DNA of 64,000 nt from Dokdonella fugitiva (GTDB lineage Bacteria; Pseudomonadota; Gammaproteobacteria; Xanthomonadales; Rhodanobacteraceae), in the NCBI RefSeq assembly GCF_014138265.1, contig NZ_JACGXL010000001.1, positions 814,525 through 878,524 on the forward strand, given 5' to 3'. Shown in pieces: positions 24,882 through 36,300 of the stretch. Every line of letters begins with the position of its first letter. The first letter of the stretch is position 1. The notes beneath the pieces were generated by a model that saw only the letters and a program-made list of their open reading frames with translations, searched no databases and was not told where the DNA came from. The translations under genes were made by a program, and so were the position numbers.

Positions 24882-25934
24882 TCAGGCGACGGTCACCCCG
24901 GCGCCTTCCGCCACTTCGCCGATCACGGCGGCCGCCGCGAAGCCGGCCGCGTGGAACGTGCGCAGCACGTCGTCCGCCGCGACCGGCGCGCACGCGACGA
25001 GCAGGCCGCCCGACGTCTGCGGATCGAACAGGATCGCCTGCGCGATCGCGTCGACACCTGCATCGAACGCGATCTCGCCGTCGAATGAGCGCGCGTTGCG
25101 CTGCGACGCGCCCGTGACGTAGCCCCCCCGCGCGAGCGCAGCGGTCGCGGCCATCAACGGTACGTCGCGCAAACGCACCGACGCGCGCACGCCGCTGCCG
25201 CGGCAGACCTCGATCAGGTGCCCGAGCAGCCCGAAGCCGGTCACGTCGGTGAGCGCGTGCACGCCGTCGAGCGCGGCGAGCGCGGGGCCGACGTCGTTGA
25301 GCCGCGTCGTCACCTCGATCATCTCGCGATACGCCGGCGCGTCGAGCGCGTCCTTCTTGAACGCGGCGGAATGGATGCCGACGCCGAGCGGCTTGCCGAG
25401 CACGAGCACGTCGCCGGCGCGTGCGCCGCTGTTGCGCTTCATGCGGCGCGGATCGACGAGCCCGATCGCGGCGAGCCCGTAGATCGGCTCGACCGAATCG
25501 ATGCTGTGACCGCCCGCGACGGGGATGCCCGCACTCGCGCAGACCGCCTCGCCGCCGCGCAGGATCTCGCGGATCGTCTCCGGCGGCAGCACCGTGATCG
25601 GCATGCCGACGATCGCGAGCGCGAACAGCGGCGAGCCGCCCATTGCGTAGACGTCGGACAACGCGTTGGTCGCCGCGATGCGGCCGAAATCGTACGGATC
25701 ATCGACGATCGGCATGAAGAAGTCGGTCGTCGCGACGATCGCGCGCGCATCGTCGAGGCGGTAGACCGCGGCGTCGTCCGACGTCTCCCGCCCGACCAGC
25801 AGCGCCGCGTGCACCGGCGGCACCGATTCGCGCAACAGGTCGGCGAGCACACCCGGCGCGATCTTGCAGCCGCAGCCGCCGCCGTGCGACAGCGACGTCA
25901 GGCGCGGTTCGGCCCCTACTTTGGTCGATGTCAC
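24882..25934 (-). CDS. selD: Selenide, water dikinase
   Basis: 350 aa, near the E. coli length (347). SelD makes selenophosphate from selenide and ATP for tRNA-Sec charging. The active site is SHGGGCGCK with Cys21 and Lys24; this form uses Cys, not Sec. Other family segments: TTDFFMPIVDDPYDFGRIAATNALSDVYAMGG, GGHSIDSVEPIYGL, LTDVTGFGLLGHL, DPQTSGGLL. The start is GTG 25934, with AGGAG 8 bases upstream; the longer frame has no similarity. It is convergent with phoU, 3 bases apart. The other sel genes lie 1.4-5.8 kb to the right on the same strand. Confidence 0.97.
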   Translation of the reverse strand: MTSTKVGAEPRLTSLSHGGGCGCKIAPGVLADLLRESVPPVHAALLVGRETSDDAAVYRLDDARAIVATTDFFMPIVDDPYDFGRIAATNALSDVYAMGGSPLFALAIVGMPITVLPPETIREILRGGEAVCASAGIPVAGGHSIDSVEPIYGLAAIGLVDPRRMKRNSGARAGDVLVLGKPLGVGIHSAAFKKDALDAPAYREMIEVTTRLNDVGPALAALDGVHALTDVTGFGLLGHLIEVCRGSGVRASVRLRDVPLMAATAALARGGYVTGASQRNARSFDGEIAFDAGVDAIAQAILFDPQTSGGLLVACAPVAADDVLRTFHAAGFAAAAVIGEVAEGAGVTVA

Positions 25935-26017
25935 GGTGCTGCTCCTGTCGCCGCCTTCGAGGCGGTCGTATAGTGCAACAGATTGCCGCTTTCCGCGCCC
26001 CGTAAGAGGAGCCGCCG

Positions 26018-27082
26018 ATGAAACGCCGCGATTTCCTGGCCTGTGCCGCACTCGCTCCGACCGCGCTGACGATCCGCCCGGCCTTCGCCGCCGAAGGCTG
26101 GCGCAACTTCGACGTCGTCACGCGCGTCGACGTCGCCGACCCCGCGGGACCGACCCGCCTGTGGCTGCCAGTGCCGCTGCGTGAAGCGGGCGACTATCAG
26201 CGCGTCCTCGCGACGCATTGGGATGCGCCTGGCGCGCAGGCGCGGCTCATCGATGTCCCGGGCGACGACGTGCGCCTGCTCGCCGTCGAGTGGCCGCGCG
26301 GCAACGTCGGTCCCGTCACGTTGACGACCCGCGTGCAGACGCGCGACCGCGGCATCGCGCGCACGGCCCGGCCGGCGGCACACCGTCGCATCGAATCGCA
26401 TCAGGCCTTGCAGCACTACCTTCGTCCGACTCGCCTGCTGCCGACGGGCGGCATCGTCGCCGACACGGCACGTCGCATCACGACCGGCCATGACGGCGAC
26501 GTGGACAAGGCGCGCGCGATCTACGAATGGGTCGTCGAGAACACCAATCGCGACGCGAGCGTCGCCGGCTGCGGTGTCGGCGACGTCGCCAGCATGCTGG
26601 AAAGCGGCCACCTCGGCGGAAAGTGCGCCGACATCAATGCGCTGTTCGTCGCGCTCGCGCGCGCTTCCGGGATCCCCGCGCGCGACGCCTACGGCGTGCG
26701 CATCGCGGCCTCGCGCCTCGGCTACCACTGCCTCGGCCGGGCCGGCGACGTCAGCAAGTCCCAGCATTGCCGGGCTGAGTTCCACGTCGAAGATCGCGGC
26801 TGGATCCCCGTCGATCCCGCCGACGTGCGCAAGGTGGTCCTGGAGGAGGATGGCGGCAGTGCAATGGACAGCCCGAAAGTACGGGCGGCACGCGCATCGA
26901 TGTTCGGAACGTGGGAAATGACCTGGATCGTCTACAACCACGGCCACGACGTGATGCTGCCCGGCGAGGAACGCCCGCTCCCGTTCCTCATGTACCCGCA
27001 GGGCCGGACGGGCCAGCGCCGCCTCGACAGCCTCGACCCGGCGTCCTTCAAGTACCAAATCACCTCGACCGAGATCGCCTGA
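26018..27082 (+). CDS. Exported transglutaminase-like domain protein
   Basis: 354 aa. The N-terminus MKRRDFLACAALAPTALTIRPAFA looks like a Tat or Sec signal. The catalytic triad of transglutaminase-like (papain-fold) proteins is visible: Cys203 in GGKCADINALFVALARASGIPAR, His256 in CRAEFHVEDRGW, Asp266 in PVDPADV. Bacterial members are usually proteases or amidases rather than crosslinkers. AGAGGAG precedes the ATG. It is divergent from selD and lies between selD and selC. Confidence 0.9.
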   Translation: MKRRDFLACAALAPTALTIRPAFAAEGWRNFDVVTRVDVADPAGPTRLWLPVPLREAGDYQRVLATHWDAPGAQARLIDVPGDDVRLLAVEWPRGNVGPVTLTTRVQTRDRGIARTARPAAHRRIESHQALQHYLRPTRLLPTGGIVADTARRITTGHDGDVDKARAIYEWVVENTNRDASVAGCGVGDVASMLESGHLGGKCADINALFVALARASGIPARDAYGVRIAASRLGYHCLGRAGDVSKSQHCRAEFHVEDRGWIPVDPADVRKVVLEEDGGSAMDSPKVRAARASMFGTWEMTWIVYNHGHDVMLPGEERPLPFLMYPQGRTGQRRLDSLDPASFKYQITSTEIA

Positions 27083-27301
27083 GGACCCACGGGCGGCTCG
27101 CGGTAGGCGGGACACAGCGGCGCGAGCACGTGCATGGATACGAGGCGACATCACCGCGAGTCCCACGAACGGGACAATCGGAGCGTGCTGTATTAGAAAA
27201 GTGCGGCGATGGATGGCCGCTATTGGATTCCGCAATCCATCGGCCCACACCATGCTTGCGACGTATCACCAAGCCGCGATCATGGACGATCGCAAAAGCC
27301 A

Positions 27302-27397
27302 TGGCGGAAGGCAGCAGGAGTCGAACCTACCGGGAAGCGGCTGACGCCCCCCACTGGGTTTGAAGCCCAGCCGCATCACCGGATGCGCATGCCTTCC
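27302..27397 (-). tRNA. selC: tRNA-Sec(UCA)
   Basis: 96-nt tRNA on the minus strand, 5' end at 27397, encoded CCA at 27304-27302. The 8-bp acceptor stem GGAAGGCA/TGCCTTCC is longer than the usual 7 bp, as in selenocysteine tRNAs; the anticodon loop CTTCAAA carries UCA (complement of 27361-27363); a long variable arm and GGTTCGA T-arm follow. It reads UGA as selenocysteine in fdoG. The selB reading frame ends inside this gene (stop at 27329-27327). Confidence 0.97.
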
Positions 27398-29321
27398 CTG
27401 CTTCGACGCCGCGGCTGCCGTTCCACCCGCTGTCGGCACGCAGCACGTGTGCATCGTGGACGCGTCGAGTGTAGCCAACGCGATCGAAGAACTCCAAGAT
27501 CTGGATCGCGCGCTTGCGACCGGTGCCGATCGCGTCGCGGAACGCGGCGGCGCCGACGGATCCGTCGCGTTCGGCGAGCGTGCGCAGCACGTCGGCGAGC
27601 TCGCGTACGCACGCGTCCGCGTAGAACAGGTCGTGCACGACCTGGTGGCAATCGCCCCGAGCGGCGACCTTGCGCAAGGCGCGTCGCACGTGGTCCTCGC
27701 GAAAACCGAACTGCACGGCGAGGTCACGCACCCACGGCGGCTCGAAGCGCCCGGTGACGAGCGCGGGCTCGATCCGGGCTACCAGCGCGAGTTCCGCTTC
27801 GCTCGGTTCGACGCGATGACCGGGCCGATGCAGCCACGGGCCGCTACGTGCGACGCTGCCGTCGCGCAGGAGTTCGTCGGCGATCGTGCGCCATGCCTCG
27901 TCGGCCAGCGCCGGGACGGCCATGCGCCGCAACCGCCCACGGTCGAGACCGGGATCGTCCGGCGCGACGGCGTGATGGGCATCGAGCACGCCCACGACCG
28001 CGGCGCGCAGCGCCTGCCAGTGCGCATCGTCGATCACGTAGCGGTGCGAGCCGCTGCCGAACACGCGCACGTCGCCCGGCAGCGCATCGACGTCGAGGGA
28101 TCGCCCCGTACGCCGCTCGAGCTCGTCGACGCGCAGTCCGCACGGTGCCGCGCGCACGAGCGGCGCGACGCCCTCGCCCGCGAGCATGCGCTCGATCGCG
28201 TCGAGCTGGGCGCGGCGCGCCTCGCTGCGGCGCCGCCGAGCGGGCGCTTGTGCATCGAGCACGACGCCGCCGCCGATCGTCGTGCGGGCTTGCGCGTCGC
28301 GGAGGATGAAGCGGTCGCCCGCACACGCGCAGACCGGCGCGTCGAACACGAGCTGCACGCGCTGCGCGCCATCGACCGCTTCGTCCAGTCGCACGACGTG
28401 CGCGGGGCGATGCGCGGTACCGAGGTGCACGTGCACGGGCGTCCAGTCGGCCCACGAGGCACGCACGCCGGCGAGAGAACGCAGACGCACGTCGATGCGC
28501 GGCGACGGCGCGAACGCACGCGCGTCGGCAACCCAGTCGCCACGCGCGAGCGCACTCTTCTCGATGCCGCTGAGGTTCAGCGCGCAGCGCTGGCCGAGCC
28601 GGCCCGTCCTCGCCTCGCGGTTCTGCGCATGCAGGCCGCGCACGCGCACGGGCGCGCGCGCGGGCATCGCGACCAGGCCATCGGAAACGTGCACCTCGCC
28701 CGCGTGCACCGTACCCGTGACGATCGTGCCGTGGCCGGCGAGGCTGAACACGCGATCGATCGCGAGCCGGAAGAACGCGTCGCTGCGGCGCGTGGGTCGG
28801 CCGCGAGCGGCGCATGCGAGGTGCTCGTGCAGCGCGCGTACGCCCGCATCATCCGCGCTGCGTGCATCCAGCGGGAACATCGCCGCGCCGTGCAGGCCGG
28901 TCGGCGCGAGCAGTGCGGCGACATCGGCGCGCACCCGCTCGACGCGCAGCGGATCGACGCGATCGGCCTTGGCGATCGCGACGACGCCGTCGGCGATACC
29001 GAGCAGGTCGAGGATCGCGACGTGCTCGCGTGTCTGCGGCATCACGCCGTCGTCGGCCGCGACCACGAGCAGCGCGAACTCGATGCCGCTCGCCCCCGCC
29101 ACCATCGTGTGCACGAGCCGCTCGTGGCCGGGGACGTCGACGAACCCGAGCACGGGATCGGCGTCGCCGCCGTCGGCGTCGAGCGGCAGGTAGGCGTAGC
29201 CGAGTTCGATCGAGATGCCGCGCTCCTTCTCTTCCCGGAGGCGGTCGGTGTCGACGCCGGTGAGCGTCCGCACGAGAGTCGACTTGCCGTGGTCGATGTG
29301 TCCCGCGGTGCCGACGATCAT
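27327..29321 (-). CDS. selB: Selenocysteine-specific elongation factor SelB
   Basis: 664 aa. The GTPase domain starts at once ([22 protein letters not shown]), with [21 protein letters not shown] and the NKxD equivalent AKADRVD. EF-Tu-like domains II/III follow, then four winged helices that bind the SECIS hairpin (for example the C-terminal [27 protein letters not shown]). The ATG overlaps the selA stop (ATGA). The family-like part ends near HVLRADSG; about 30 further residues follow, the last 22 of which are encoded by the tRNA-Sec gene. This tail is not expected to be functional protein in itself. Confidence 0.96.
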
Positions 29322-30742
29322 GGCGACAGCCGCGCGAGTTGCGCGACGAACGCCGCCTCGTCGGATTCGTCGAGGCAGCGCAGGTCGAGCCACAGCGTGC
29401 GGTCGGCGATGCGCCCGACGACGGCACGCGGCAGTGCGCGGAGCGCCGCGTCGAGGCGATCGAGGCCACCGCCGCGACGCTGCATGCGGATCGCGAAGCC
29501 GTGGCTCGCGAGCGTGGCCGTCGGCAGCGCGCCGCTGCCGATCTGGCTCTCCATCGCGACGACCGCGACCTCGCAGCGCTCGCCGAGCACATCGCGCAAC
29601 GCGGGTGCGAGGCGCAGCGCCTGCGCCTCGATCGCGGCCGCTGCGCGCGTGAGCGCACGCAGCGTCGGCAGTCGGGCGGCGAGCCGTTCGGGAGCCCGAT
29701 ACAGCGCGAGCACCGGTTCGAGCGCGGCGAGCGTGAGCTTGCCGACGCGCAACGCACGCTTGAGCGGATGGCGCTTGATGCGCTGCACGAGCGCAGCGCG
29801 ACCGACGACGAGCCCGGCCTGCGGTCCACCGAGCAGCTTGTCGCCGCTGAACGTGACGAGGTCGGCGCCCTCCGCCAGCACGTCGCGCACGACCGGCTCG
29901 CGCGGCAAGCCGAAATCGCCGAGATCGACGAGGCTGCCACTGCCGAGGTCGACGATCAGCGGCAGCCCGCTCGCGTGGGCGATCGCCGCGAGCGCGGCGG
30001 CGCCGACGCTCGCGGTGAAGCCGCTGACGACATAGTTGCTCGTGTGCACCTTCATGAGCGCGGCCGTGCGCGACCCGATCGCGTCGGCGTAGTCGGCCGC
30101 GTGCGTGCGGTTGGTCGTGCCGACTTCACGCAGGCGCGCGCCGGCGGTGCGCATCACGTCGGGAATGCGGAACGAGCCCCCGATCTCGACGAGTTCGCCG
30201 CGCGAGACGATCACGTCGCGCCGGTTCGCCAGCGCCGCGAGTACGAGCAGGACCGCAGCCGCGTTGTTGTTGACGACCGTCGCGGCCTCGGCGCCGGTGA
30301 GTTCGCACAGCAGCGCTTCGACGACGCGGTCGCGATCGCCGCGCGCTCCCGAGCCGAGGTCGAACTCGAGGTTGACCGGAGCGGCCGCTGCATCGACCAG
30401 CGCATCGATCGCGGCCTGCGGCAGCGTCGCGCGCCCGAGGTTCGTGTGCAGCACCGTGCCGGACAGGTTGAACACGCGACGCAGCGCGCGTCGATGGCGC
30501 GCATCGAGGGCCGCGGTGACGTCGGCCGCGATTGCCGGAGTGCCCGCCTGTGCGATCGGCACCCCACCGTCGACGACGCGCGCGCGCAACGCGTCGAGCG
30601 CGCCGCGCAGCGCGGCCGTCACTTCGGTGCGCCCGTACGCGGCGAGCAGCGCCGCGAACGCGGCGTCGTTGAGCAGGCGATCGAGCGCGGGAATGTCGCC
30701 GGGCACGGCGAGCGTTCGCGCCCCGGCCGGCGCCACGGTCAT
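29318..30742 (-). CDS. selA: L-seryl-tRNA(Sec) selenium transferase
   Basis: 474 aa. PLP enzyme that converts Ser-tRNA(Sec) to Sec-tRNA(Sec) with selenophosphate from SelD. PLP lysine is Lys302 in [14 protein letters not shown]; other signatures are [23 protein letters not shown] and [11 protein letters not shown]. Start ATG 30742 overlaps the fdhE stop by 4 bases (ATGA), and its own stop overlaps selB the same way, so fdhE-selA-selB are translationally coupled. Confidence 0.97.
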
Positions 30743-31719
30743 CCCCCGGTCCCTTGCCAGAGCAGCGGATTGCCGCTCGCGCGGTGATAACCGTCTTGCG
30801 CCAGCAGCAAGTCGAGCGCGAGGCTCGCGAGATCGTCGGCGACGGGCTCGACCGCGGTGTCGCGCTCCTCGTAGAGGATCTTGCGATAGGCGTGGCAGGC
30901 GTCGCAGGTTTCCGCGCGCACGGCCTCCGCGTCGGCGACGGCGATGTCGTCGACCGCGTCGCGGCGCGCGAGCGTCCGATACGCGATGTCCTTGCCGCCG
31001 GCGCCGCAATGCGTGCACTGCACGCGCACGCGATGCCATTCGGTCGCGCACAGCGCGCAGTGCAGGAAGCGTTGGCCCGCGTGCGGCCCCTGCGCGGCGA
31101 CGATGCTCGCGACCGGCGCGCTGCCGCACAGCGGGCAGACCGTGCGCACGTCGAGCAGCGGCACGTCGGCGGCGGTGAACGCGGCCGTCGAAGCGACGAA
31201 GTACACCTGCAGCGCAGCCATCACGATGGGCGCCGCGGCGACGTCGATCGCGCCGGCGCGCGCGGCGAGCAGCGCGTCCGCCTGCTGCTCGAGCCACGCC
31301 GCAGGCGCACTGCGCAGTCGCGCCGCAAGATCGCCGACGGCGGCAGGCATGCCGTCGGCCGCGCCGAGCAAGCCGGCGATGTCGTGCACGACGTCGTGCC
31401 AGTGCGGCTCGCGCGGCCCGCCTGACGCGAGCAACGGCGGCATCGCGTGCTCGCGCGCCCTCGCAATCTGCGCTGCGGACGGCGGCGAGGCGCTGAATCC
31501 GACGAGTGCCCGCTGTTGCGCGTCGCACACCGTAGCGAGCAGGCGCAGGTAGTCGGCAAGCGGGTGCCCCATCGCGCGTTCGCGCAGGCGCGCTGCGCGG
31601 CGCGCGAACACGCGATCACGCGCGGGCAGGCGCACGCGCGGCGTCGCGCGCTGCCCTGCGGTTTCGATCTGGCCGGGTTCGAGGATGCGCTGCGGCATGG
31701 CGGGTCCGGTCGACGGCAC
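30739..31719 (-). CDS. fdhE: Formate dehydrogenase accessory protein FdhE
   Basis: 326 aa. FdhE helps fit iron-sulfur or redox centres into respiratory formate dehydrogenases. The rubredoxin-like C-terminal region has the four CxxC pairs expected: [29 protein letters not shown]. The start is GTG 31719 because GAGGA lies 8 bases upstream; an internal ATG at 31698 ([10 protein letters not shown]) would align better with E. coli FdhE and remains possible. It follows the cytochrome subunit by 48 bp. Confidence 0.95.
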
Positions 31720-33318: not shown

Positions 33319-36300
33319 TCAAGCCTTCTCGACCTTGACCAGGAACGACTTGAACTCGGGCGTCTGCGAGTTGCCGTCGCCGACCACGGGCGTGAGCGAA
33401 TTGGCGAGGAAGCCCGCCTTCGCCACGCCGGTGAAACCCCAGTGGATCGGGATGCCGACCGTGTGCACGGTGCGGCCGTCGATAGTGAGCGCCTTGATGC
33501 GCTTGGTCACCATCGCGACCGCGACGATGTGGCCGCGGTTGGAACTCACCTTCACGCGCCCGCCATTCTCGACGCCGACTTCCTTCGCGAGCGCTTCGCC
33601 GATCTCGACGAACTGCTCCGGCTGCAGGATCGCGTTGAGGCGGACGTGCTTGGTCCAGTAGTGGAAGTGCTCGGTGAGGCGATACGTCGTCGCCACGTGC
33701 GGGAACTGCTCGGCCTTGCCGAACGCCTCGCGATCGTCCTTGAACACGCGCGCGGCGGGGTTGCTGATCGCCTGCGGCTGGTCGGGGTTGAGCAGGTTCC
33801 TGCCGAGCGGCGTCTCGAACGGCTCGTAGTGCTCCGGGAACGGCCCTTCGGCCATCGCGCCGCGCGCGAAGAAGCGCGCGACACCCTCGGGATTCATGAT
33901 GAACGGGCCCATGCCGCCGGCCGGATTCTCGTCCGCCTTGAAATCCGGGATGTCCGCCCCGCCCCATGCACTGCCGTTCCAGCCGACGAGCTTGCGCTCC
34001 GGGTTGAACGGCTTGCCCGACGGATCGCACGATGCGCGGTTGTAGAGCACGCGCCGGTTCGCCGGCCACGACCATGCCCAGTTGATCGTCTGGCCGATGC
34101 CGGTCGGGTCGGAACTGTCGCGACGCGCCATCAGGTTGCCGGTCGGTCCCCACGCGCCGCAGAAGATCCAGCAACCGCTCGACGTGCTGCCGTCGTCGCG
34201 CAGCTCGGCGAATCCGGCGAGTTGCTCCCCGGCCTTGCGCACGACCTTGGTCGAGTCCTTCGGGTCGGCGAGGTCCTTCAGCGCGCTGCCCGAATACTCG
34301 CGCGCGAGCTCTTCCGGGGCCGGGCTGTCGGCGTGCGCGTACTTCCACGCGAGGTTCAGGATCGGATCGGGGAACGCGCCGCCCTCTTCGCGATACGCCT
34401 TGCGCAGGCGCGTGAACAGGCCGGCCATGATCTCGAGATCGCTGCGCGCTTCGCCAGGCGGATTGGCGCCCTTCCAGTGCCACTGCAGCCAACGCGAGGA
34501 ATTGGTCAGCGAACCGTCTTCCTCGGCGAAGCACGTGGTCGGCAGGCGGAACACTTCCGTCTGGATCTTCGCCGGATCGACGTCGTTGTGCACGCCGGCG
34601 TTGCGCCAGAACTCCGACGTCTCCGTAGCGAGCGGATCCATGATGACGAGGAACTTCAGCTTCGCCAGGCTCGCGTCCATCTTCGCCTTGTTCGGCGCCG
34701 CCGCGAGCGGATTGAAACCCTGGCAGATGTAGCCGTTGACCTTGCCCTGGCTCATGAGCTCGAACGTCTGCAGCATGTCGTACGGCTTGTCCAGCTTGGG
34801 CAGGTAGTCGTAACCCCAGTGGTTCTCCGCGGTCGCCGCGTCGCCCCACCACGCCTTCATGAAGCTCACGAAGAACTTGCCGTAGTTCTGCCAGTAGCTG
34901 AGCTGGTTCGGGCGCAGAGGCTTCTGCGCGCGCGCGGCGATGTACTTGTCGTAGTCCTGCTCCGCCTCGTTCGGCAAGGTCATGTAGCCGGGCAGCAGGT
35001 TCGACATGAGGCCGAGGTCGGTCAGGCCCTGGATGTTCGAATGCCCGCGCAGCGCGTTCATGCCACCGCCGGCGATGCCGATGTTGCCGAGCAGCAGCTG
35101 GACCATCGCGCCGGTGCGGATCATCTGCGAACCGATCGAGTGCTGGGTCCAGCCGAGCGCGTACATGATCGTCATCGCGCGCGTCGGTACCGCGGTCGAG
35201 GCAATCAACTCCCAGATGTGCAGTACCTTGTCCTTCGGCGTGCCGCACACGCGCTCGACCATGTCCGGCGTGTAGCGCGCGTAGTGCTGCTTGAGCAGGG
35301 AGTAGACGCAGCGCGGGTCGGCCAGGGTCGGGTCGGTGCGCACGTAGCCGTCGTCACCGAGTTCGTAGTCCCAGCTCGACTTGTCGTAGCTGCGCTTGTC
35401 CGCGTTGTACCCCGAATACAGCCCCTGCTCGAACGTGAAGGCGTCCTTCACGATGAACGAAAGATCGGTGTAGTTGACGACGTACTCGCGTTGGATCTTG
35501 TCGTTGGCGAGCAGGTAGGCGATGAGTCCGCCGAGGAACACGATGTCCGTGCCCGGGCGGATCGGCGCGTAGACGTCCGCGACCGACGCCGAGCGCGTGA
35601 AGCGCGGGTCGACGACGATGAGCTTCGCCTTGTTGTGCGCCTTCGCTTCGGTGACCCACTTGAAGCCGCACGGGTGCGCCTCGGCGGCGTTGCCACCCAT
35701 GATGAGGACGAGGTCGGCATTCTTGATGTCGACCCAGTGATTCGTCATCGCACCTCGGCCGAACGTCGGGGCAAGACCTGCCACCGTCGGGCCGTGTCAG
35801 ACACGTGCCTGGTTGTCGAATGCGAGGAGTCCGAGCGAGCGAGCGACCTTGTGCGTGAGATAGCCGACCTCGTTGCTGCTCGCCGAGGCGGCGAGCATGC
35901 CGGTCGTGAGCCAGCGGTTGACCGTCTGCCCCTGCGCGTTCTTCGCGACGAAGTTCGCGTCGCGGTCCTGCTTCATGAGCTTGGCGATGCGGTTGAGCGC
36001 ATCGTCCCAGCCGATCCGTTCCCAGCGGTCCGAGCCCGGCGCGCGGTACTCGGGATACTTGAGGCGGCTGTCGCTGTGGATGAAGTCGATCAGTGCGGCG
36101 CCCTTCGGGCAGAGCGTGCCGCGATTGACCGGATGATCCGGGTCGCCCTCGATGTGGAAGATCGACGCCTGCGCGTTCTTCGCGCGGTCGCCGAGTCCGT
36201 ACATGAGCACGCCGCAGGCGACCGAACAGTAGGGACAGGTGTTGCGCGTCTCGGTCGCACGGCTCAGTTTGAACTCGCGCACCTCGGCCAGCGCGGGCGC

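Follow-up and report, generated by a model that had tools for sequence, protein, structure and literature searches.

Overlap between selB and selC, the gene of tRNA-Sec, was described by Mukai 2021 in several arrangements (PMC8124441). In Alphaproteobacteria, selC is nested in selB; in Dyella and Luteibacter, the overlap is partial, and the selB stop lies at tRNA positions 46–48; one case from Nitrospirae was reported as well, along with one in Shewanella and Ferrimonas in which the overlap is reversed (PMC8124441). That study proposed that the Dyella/Luteibacter overlap was inherited from the Alphaproteobacterial nested state, and put forward the hypothesis that tRNA processing turns the SelB message into a nonstop mRNA, which would make SelB and tRNA-Sec alternatives (PMC8124441). 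It also recounts that, in the mitochondrion of Armadillidium vulgare, a tRNA-Lys lies within cox1 (PMC8124441). Two later reviews restate the overlap and the nonstop-mRNA idea (PMC13188914, PMC9312934). Within the searched portions of the literature, we noticed no experiment on the nonstop-mRNA mechanism and recognized no further bacterial cases.

We analyzed a window of 64,000 nucleotides from Dokdonella fugitiva for which an original prediction, made from the letters alone, held that selB runs 71 nt into the tRNA-Sec gene and has no stop ahead of it. Both statements were borne out by ARAGORN, by Rfam model RF01852 (positions 27306–27397, 76.8 bits, gathering score 47), and by the open reading frame coordinates (Table 1). 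The runner-up RF01852 match in the genome, at 51.8 bits, was a tRNA-Ser according to ARAGORN. Stop codons were absent from all three frames across the 120 nt upstream of tRNA-Sec. Before the tRNA there are 1924 nt of selB, or 641 whole codons plus 1 nt; codon 642 spans the tRNA 5′ end, and codons 643–664, the 22 last sense codons, lie with the TAG inside selC, where the prediction had placed them. The arrangement has the features of a selB–selC overlap in the sense of Mukai 2021: the selB frame and tRNA-Sec are both intact and lie on one strand, and the frame runs into the tRNA without meeting a stop first. As also predicted, a cut at the tRNA-Sec 5′ end would strip selB of its stop, leaving 641 codons and none to end them. 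The mechanism offered by the prediction is already published, as a hypothesis (PMC8124441).

Table 1. Features of the selB–selC region and its surroundings, in positions of the window.
Feature	Positions	Strand	Remarks
Terminator-like hairpin with T-rich tail	27203..27220	(-)	After selC; consensus match only
selC (tRNA-Sec)	27302..27397	(-)	ARAGORN; anticodon tca (DNA letters), CCA encoded
selB stop TAG	27327..27329	(-)	tRNA positions 69–71, T arm
selB/tRNA-Sec overlap, 71 nt	27327..27397	(-)	Codons start at tRNA positions 3, 6, 9 and so on
selB CDS	27327..29321	(-)	ATG at 29321; 664 codons plus TAG
Spacer	27398..27437	(-)	Codons 629–641 and first base of codon 642; end of SelB homology to tRNA 5′ end
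selA	29318..30739	(-)	Pfam SelA, E 2.5e-155; start codon inferred
fdhE	30739..31719	(-)	Upstream, same gene run; Pfam FdhE_N, FdhE_central and FdhE_C on 30742–31719
SECIS element (Rfam SECIS_3, RF01989)	35744..35802	(-)	80.6 bits; upstream of fdhE-selA-selB-selC

The encoded protein has the parts of a bacterial SelB, namely a GTPase domain, a SelB beta barrel, and C-terminal winged helices, as judged from Pfam and from PDB 5lzb. The Pfam matches were GTP_EFTU, Beta-barrel_SelB, SelB-wing_2, SelB_WH_2nd_bact, and SelB-wing_3, the last of which ends at residue 627. Residues 1–628 align to the solved Escherichia coli SelB (PDB 5lzb chain z, E 5.4e-118), with query residue 628 falling on chain residue 606 of 614. 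Residues 629–664 form a tail of 36 residues past the end of homology, in agreement with the claim that the tail has no place in the SelB fold. By homology, the last winged-helix domain, and with it the folded SelB, would be fully encoded upstream of the tRNA 5′ cut. The chance of an in-frame stop among the window’s 12 spacer codons is 0.15–0.17. With the native stop gone, it is no surprise to find the spacer open; the total absence of a stop before the tRNA is the unusual part.

We looked at the neighboring genes and signals for what they say about the transcript. The ATG of selB shares two bases with the TGA of selA, as ATGA. Terminator-like sites in 27050–27950 numbered 2, compared with 0.4 expected from shuffles; one lies inside selB, and the other, the hairpin after selC, is a possible transcript end. 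In a low-power scan of the same interval we found no sigma-70-like promoter (0.0 expected in shuffles). A transcript shared by selB and selC is likely in view of the gene run, the ATGA overlap, the hairpin after selC, and the lack of a visible sigma-70-like promoter. The genome has a tmRNA (175 bits), and a search of it for ArfA gave no match. When 211 nt around the junction were folded, the minimum-energy structure had a cloverleaf-like part starting at tRNA position 1, but with the GCCA end of the tRNA paired to selB sequence farther upstream. The centroid structure does not have the cloverleaf shape, and the folding energy is unremarkable (z -1.12). Farther upstream, the SECIS element marks a selenoprotein gene that we take to be formate dehydrogenase; decoding TGA as sense in this gene yielded no useful frame. 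On the other side, an opposite-strand ORF at 26018–27082 (+) separates selC from a presumably selD-like ORF at 24882–26051 (-).

To place the window among its relatives, we surveyed selB–selC junctions with a tRNA-Sec threshold of E 1e-11 or better. Carriers made up 54/233 genomes of the family set, 41/348 of the order, 17/369 of the class, and 52/398 of the phylum, these sets being overlapping and the filters for large sets dropping some weak matches. All fetched loci, named records included, gave 144 distinct tRNA-Sec loci; 117 of them have a SelB match on their own strand that ends no more than 1000 nt upstream, and 27 do not. Overlap was present in 23 of the 117 junctions, 20 of them partial and 3 running through the whole tRNA, in a sample that is weighted to the window’s family and gives no estimate of frequency across bacteria. 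The three whole-tRNA rows are L124 (Paramesorhizobium deserti), L200, and L231; in the latter two, which belong to another class, selB stops 129 and 109 nt beyond the 5′ end of the tRNA. At the other extreme, both selC-bearing genomes of one genus (code g25; rows L083 and L085) have a selB TGA that abuts tRNA-Sec position 1, with a gap of 0.

In the window’s own genus, tRNA-Sec was found in 5 of 16 genomes, and only the window overlaps among the five: in the four other selC-bearing congeners, the selB stop comes 7, 17, 18, and 51 nt ahead of the tRNA, so the state is not conserved. One row from another genus, L080 (genome G223), has an overlap identical in length, 71 nt, with a different spacer; the three other selC-bearing genomes of its genus have no overlap. 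Outside the clade of Rhizobiales and Dyella-type SelBs, the stop precedes the tRNA in 68 of 70 junctions, and overlap is found in 2. A stop in the window’s frame ending at tRNA position 71 is present in 14 of the 70 tRNAs there. The check named with the prediction, whether the overlap is conserved across genomes, came out negative both among the congeners and outside that clade. A plasmid search gave Burkholderia records as the best of 125, at 69% identity over the whole query, and the hits displayed carried no listed feature. As a control, on which our reading does not draw, we took 41 tRNAs other than tRNA-Sec from the fetched loci that had 700 nt of sequence ahead of them; here, 18 frames that stay open for at least 450 nt enter a tRNA, all of them at most putative genes. 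In Nocardioides furvisabuli (L171), an upstream frame open for 516 nt, with a third-position G+C of 0.97 and likewise at most a putative gene, enters a tRNA-Pro and runs past it, to 111 nt from its 5′ end.

The surveyed junctions were then considered by SelB type and by reading frame. A SelB tree was built from 116 rows, with L070 left out as too short. We call Dyella-type the 40 rows for which L067 was the best SelB query, L225 excluded, a label that rests on likeness to Mukai’s description and on one matched Luteibacter record; the Rhizobiales-like group consists of L124, L190, L200, L225, L231, L232, and L239. Across the tree rows, the upstream stop was missing in 20/34 that have an in-frame stop in the tRNA and was kept in 79/82 that have none. 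The exceptions are three nested Rhizobiales-like rows whose frame meets no stop in the tRNA and crosses it entirely. A conserved switch agrees less well with this pattern than does a tolerated overlap that borrows its stop. All 40 Dyella-type tRNAs have a stop at 46–48 in the frame starting at position 1, and their remaining frames are open through the tRNA, save for a frame-1 stop in one row. Dyella-type overlaps occurred in 17 of 21 rows in the frame with the internal stop and in 0 of 19 in other frames (Fisher 6.9e-8, kinship ignored). Among other rows, overlap was seen in 2/11 with an internal stop and 0/57 without one (Fisher p 0.024), a test that covers the 70 rows less two with gaps over 220. 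Kinship confounds the frame association and weakens all of these frame counts as well as the spacer counts below. Independent pairs on supported branches agreed with the association in a mean of 3.7 out of 5, and none opposed it (median p 0.125, not significant).

How often an upstream stop would be expected by chance was estimated from the spacers of 74 of the 116 tree rows, with the 7 Rhizobiales-like rows set aside and 35 skipped because the gap exceeded 60, the spacer was shorter than 6 nt, or the anchor motif was missing. Where no internal stop is available, the upstream stop was present in 19/19 Dyella-type rows (5.1–6.5 expected) and in 25/25 other rows (7.7–12.4 expected). In Dyella-type rows with an internal stop, it was present in 4/21, as against 5.6–6.9 expected, and this count is not significantly below chance (P 0.13–0.30). 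We read these figures to mean that the stop before the tRNA would be largely dispensable where the tRNA supplies one. If overlap were selected for, upstream stops should fall clearly short of the chance level; no such shortfall was seen, and our reading is therefore one of tolerance. The class to which the window belongs, other rows with an internal stop, kept the upstream stop in 7/9 (2.9–3.7 expected); since this is somewhat above chance, overlap may carry a cost in such rows. A comparison of six close overlapping Dyella-type pairs, which share genomes, gave a pN/pS of 0.50 in spacer codons (15 nonsynonymous and 13 synonymous changes, 28 in all) vs. 0.19 in the body, where some codons before the true start are included. 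The tRNA-encoded part of the tail is fixed by the tRNA, so this measure covers the spacer part only; in these pairs, the spacer peptide appears weakly constrained at most.

The SelB tree points to more than one origin of the overlap. In the 116-row tree, made by a quick method, a 47-row clade (support 99) holds the 18 overlaps whose stop is at 48, together with the 3 nested rows. The window falls in other supported sets, of 34 rows (100) and 40 rows (95), the latter being the window, L080, and 38 nonoverlapping rows; its part of the tree includes rows from Paraburkholderia (L110) and [Pseudomonas] boreopolis (L120). The window’s overlap is most likely not derived from the Dyella/Rhizobiales lineage, and descent from the Alphaproteobacterial nested state is disfavored by the SelB tree. 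In a 26-row tree, made by a careful method, the window is sister to L243 (96/94, supported), a congener row with its stop before the tRNA. The same state in L080 invites the idea of one inherited 71-nt overlap common to both. This idea is disfavored: the two SelBs do not form one clade (AU p 0.0265 against their pairing, the pair having been named after the first tree was seen), and a single-change history of the overlap appeared in 0% of 200 bootstrap trees of the 26-row set, in which the place of L080 is not a supported one. The window’s overlap probably arose apart from that of L080.

The 116-row tree also bears on the Dyella-type state. L225 (genome G1112, same phylum, another class) has its stop at tRNA position 48 and lies just outside the 40 Dyella-type SelBs (98, supported). 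Its place suggests that the stop-at-48 state was ancestral in the Dyella-type clade, and L225 may mark a donor lineage or the ancestral state. The window’s family holds two distant SelB types, one Rhizobiales-like and one Burkholderia- or Xanthomonas-like, pointing to transfer of selenocysteine genes.

We consider it fairly probable that the loss of the selB stop was simply tolerated in the window, with a stop borrowed from the tRNA. selB and selC, neighbors on one strand, would probably be carried on one transcript. Comparison with relatives suggests that the stop found in them just ahead of selC is missing here most simply by loss; ribosomes would then continue to the first in-frame stop, by sequence the TAG of the tRNA-Sec T arm, and yield a SelB with the 36-residue tail, 23 residues of which would come wholly or partly from tRNA sequence. 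Cutting by RNase P at the tRNA 5′ end would release an upstream piece that encodes all SelB domains and has no stop, and tmRNA would free the ribosomes on this piece. Each maturation of tRNA-Sec would thereby end SelB synthesis from that transcript, a coupling that the cell would tolerate, since the tRNA provides an adequate stop. The original prediction’s statement that SelB and tRNA-Sec synthesis are mutually exclusive went too far: a message could be translated first and cut later, and by homology the last winged-helix domain is encoded before the cut.

Tolerance has to be weighed against three other accounts. A selected reciprocal switch, in which tRNA-Sec maturation by RNase P and production of full-length SelB compete and are kept in balance, is in our judgment unlikely. 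Competition with RNase P would follow from the anatomy if the transcript is shared, tmRNA is present, overlaps recur at two distinct places in the SelB tree, and those of the window and L080 are apparently separate. However, the overlap is absent from the four congeners and rare outside the Rhizobiales/Dyella-type clade, and where an internal stop exists, the Dyella-type rows give no sign of selection against upstream stops. The built-in balance that had been proposed is for these reasons not supported as a selected trait, and in the sequence comparisons nothing was found that would favor retention of the overlap as a switch in this lineage. A broader version, that selB–tRNA overlap evolved repeatedly, in separate clades and frames, as a shut-off of SelB by tRNA-Sec maturation and was selected where the tRNA offered a stop, strikes us as doubtful to a somewhat greater degree.

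The shared transcript itself has a competitor: selC might be expressed chiefly from its own promoter in the 3′ part of selB, read-in from selB being minor and irrelevant to tRNA supply. Cells usually require more copies of a tRNA than of a rare mRNA, and G+C-rich genomes commonly have promoters that depart from the sigma-70 consensus. Against this stand the empty, if low-power, promoter scan and the close packing of the genes, with selA joined to selB and selB leading straight into selC, and we regard a dominant selC promoter as a poor prospect. An error of sequence or assembly that hides a selB stop before selC is very improbable indeed, even with the species represented by one genome. With no stop in any frame over those 120 nt, a one-base insertion or deletion could not place one before 27397, which disposes, as far as a single indel goes, of the sequencing correction named beforehand as a possible refutation; for the last 14 codons, 126 one-base changes give a stop in 3 cases, and L080, in another genus, has the same 71-nt overlap. 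We rejected sequencing error on the first of these grounds.

With tolerance as the preferred reading, the locus represents an apparent further origin of the published selB–selC overlap, in a different frame and a different SelB clade. Comparison can tell a switch from a tolerated accident: in Dyella-type rows, upstream stops are found at about chance level where the tRNA has a stop and are kept where it has none. The junction is also a natural test bed for the competition of RNase P and the ribosome on one RNA and suits the study of tmRNA rescue of a translation-factor message.

Among the known systems, the overlap of Dyella and Luteibacter is closest. Luteibacter is placed in the Rhodanobacteraceae (PMC8124441), the family of the window’s host, and the two arrangements share strand, gene order, a selB stop inside tRNA-Sec, and the same proposed nonstop SelB mRNA. 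They differ in that Dyella and Luteibacter have a stop at 46–48, a TGA in the rows seen, in the frame from position 1, whereas the window has TAG at 69–71 in the frame from position 3. Their SelBs are Rhizobiales-like, and that of the window is outside their 47-row clade; it shows neither mark of that lineage. We did not find the TAG 69–71 variant in the searched portions of the literature or in the text of PMC8124441. The nested selC of Alphaproteobacteria likewise gives SelB a tail translated from tRNA-Sec, but its frame crosses the whole tRNA and often overlaps the start of a downstream ORF, whereas the window’s selB stops within the tRNA, at position 71 of 96. In the reversed overlap of Shewanella and Ferrimonas, the SelB tail also comes from tRNA-Sec sequence, but the tRNA is on the opposite strand, not on that of selB as here. 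The cox1/tRNA-Lys case of Armadillidium vulgare, as recounted by Mukai 2021, resembles the window in having a protein frame through a same-strand tRNA and differs in belonging to a compact mitochondrial genome and to a gene unrelated to selB. The window’s arrangement is, then, of a known overlap type and is new in its frame, its stop, and its SelB clade.
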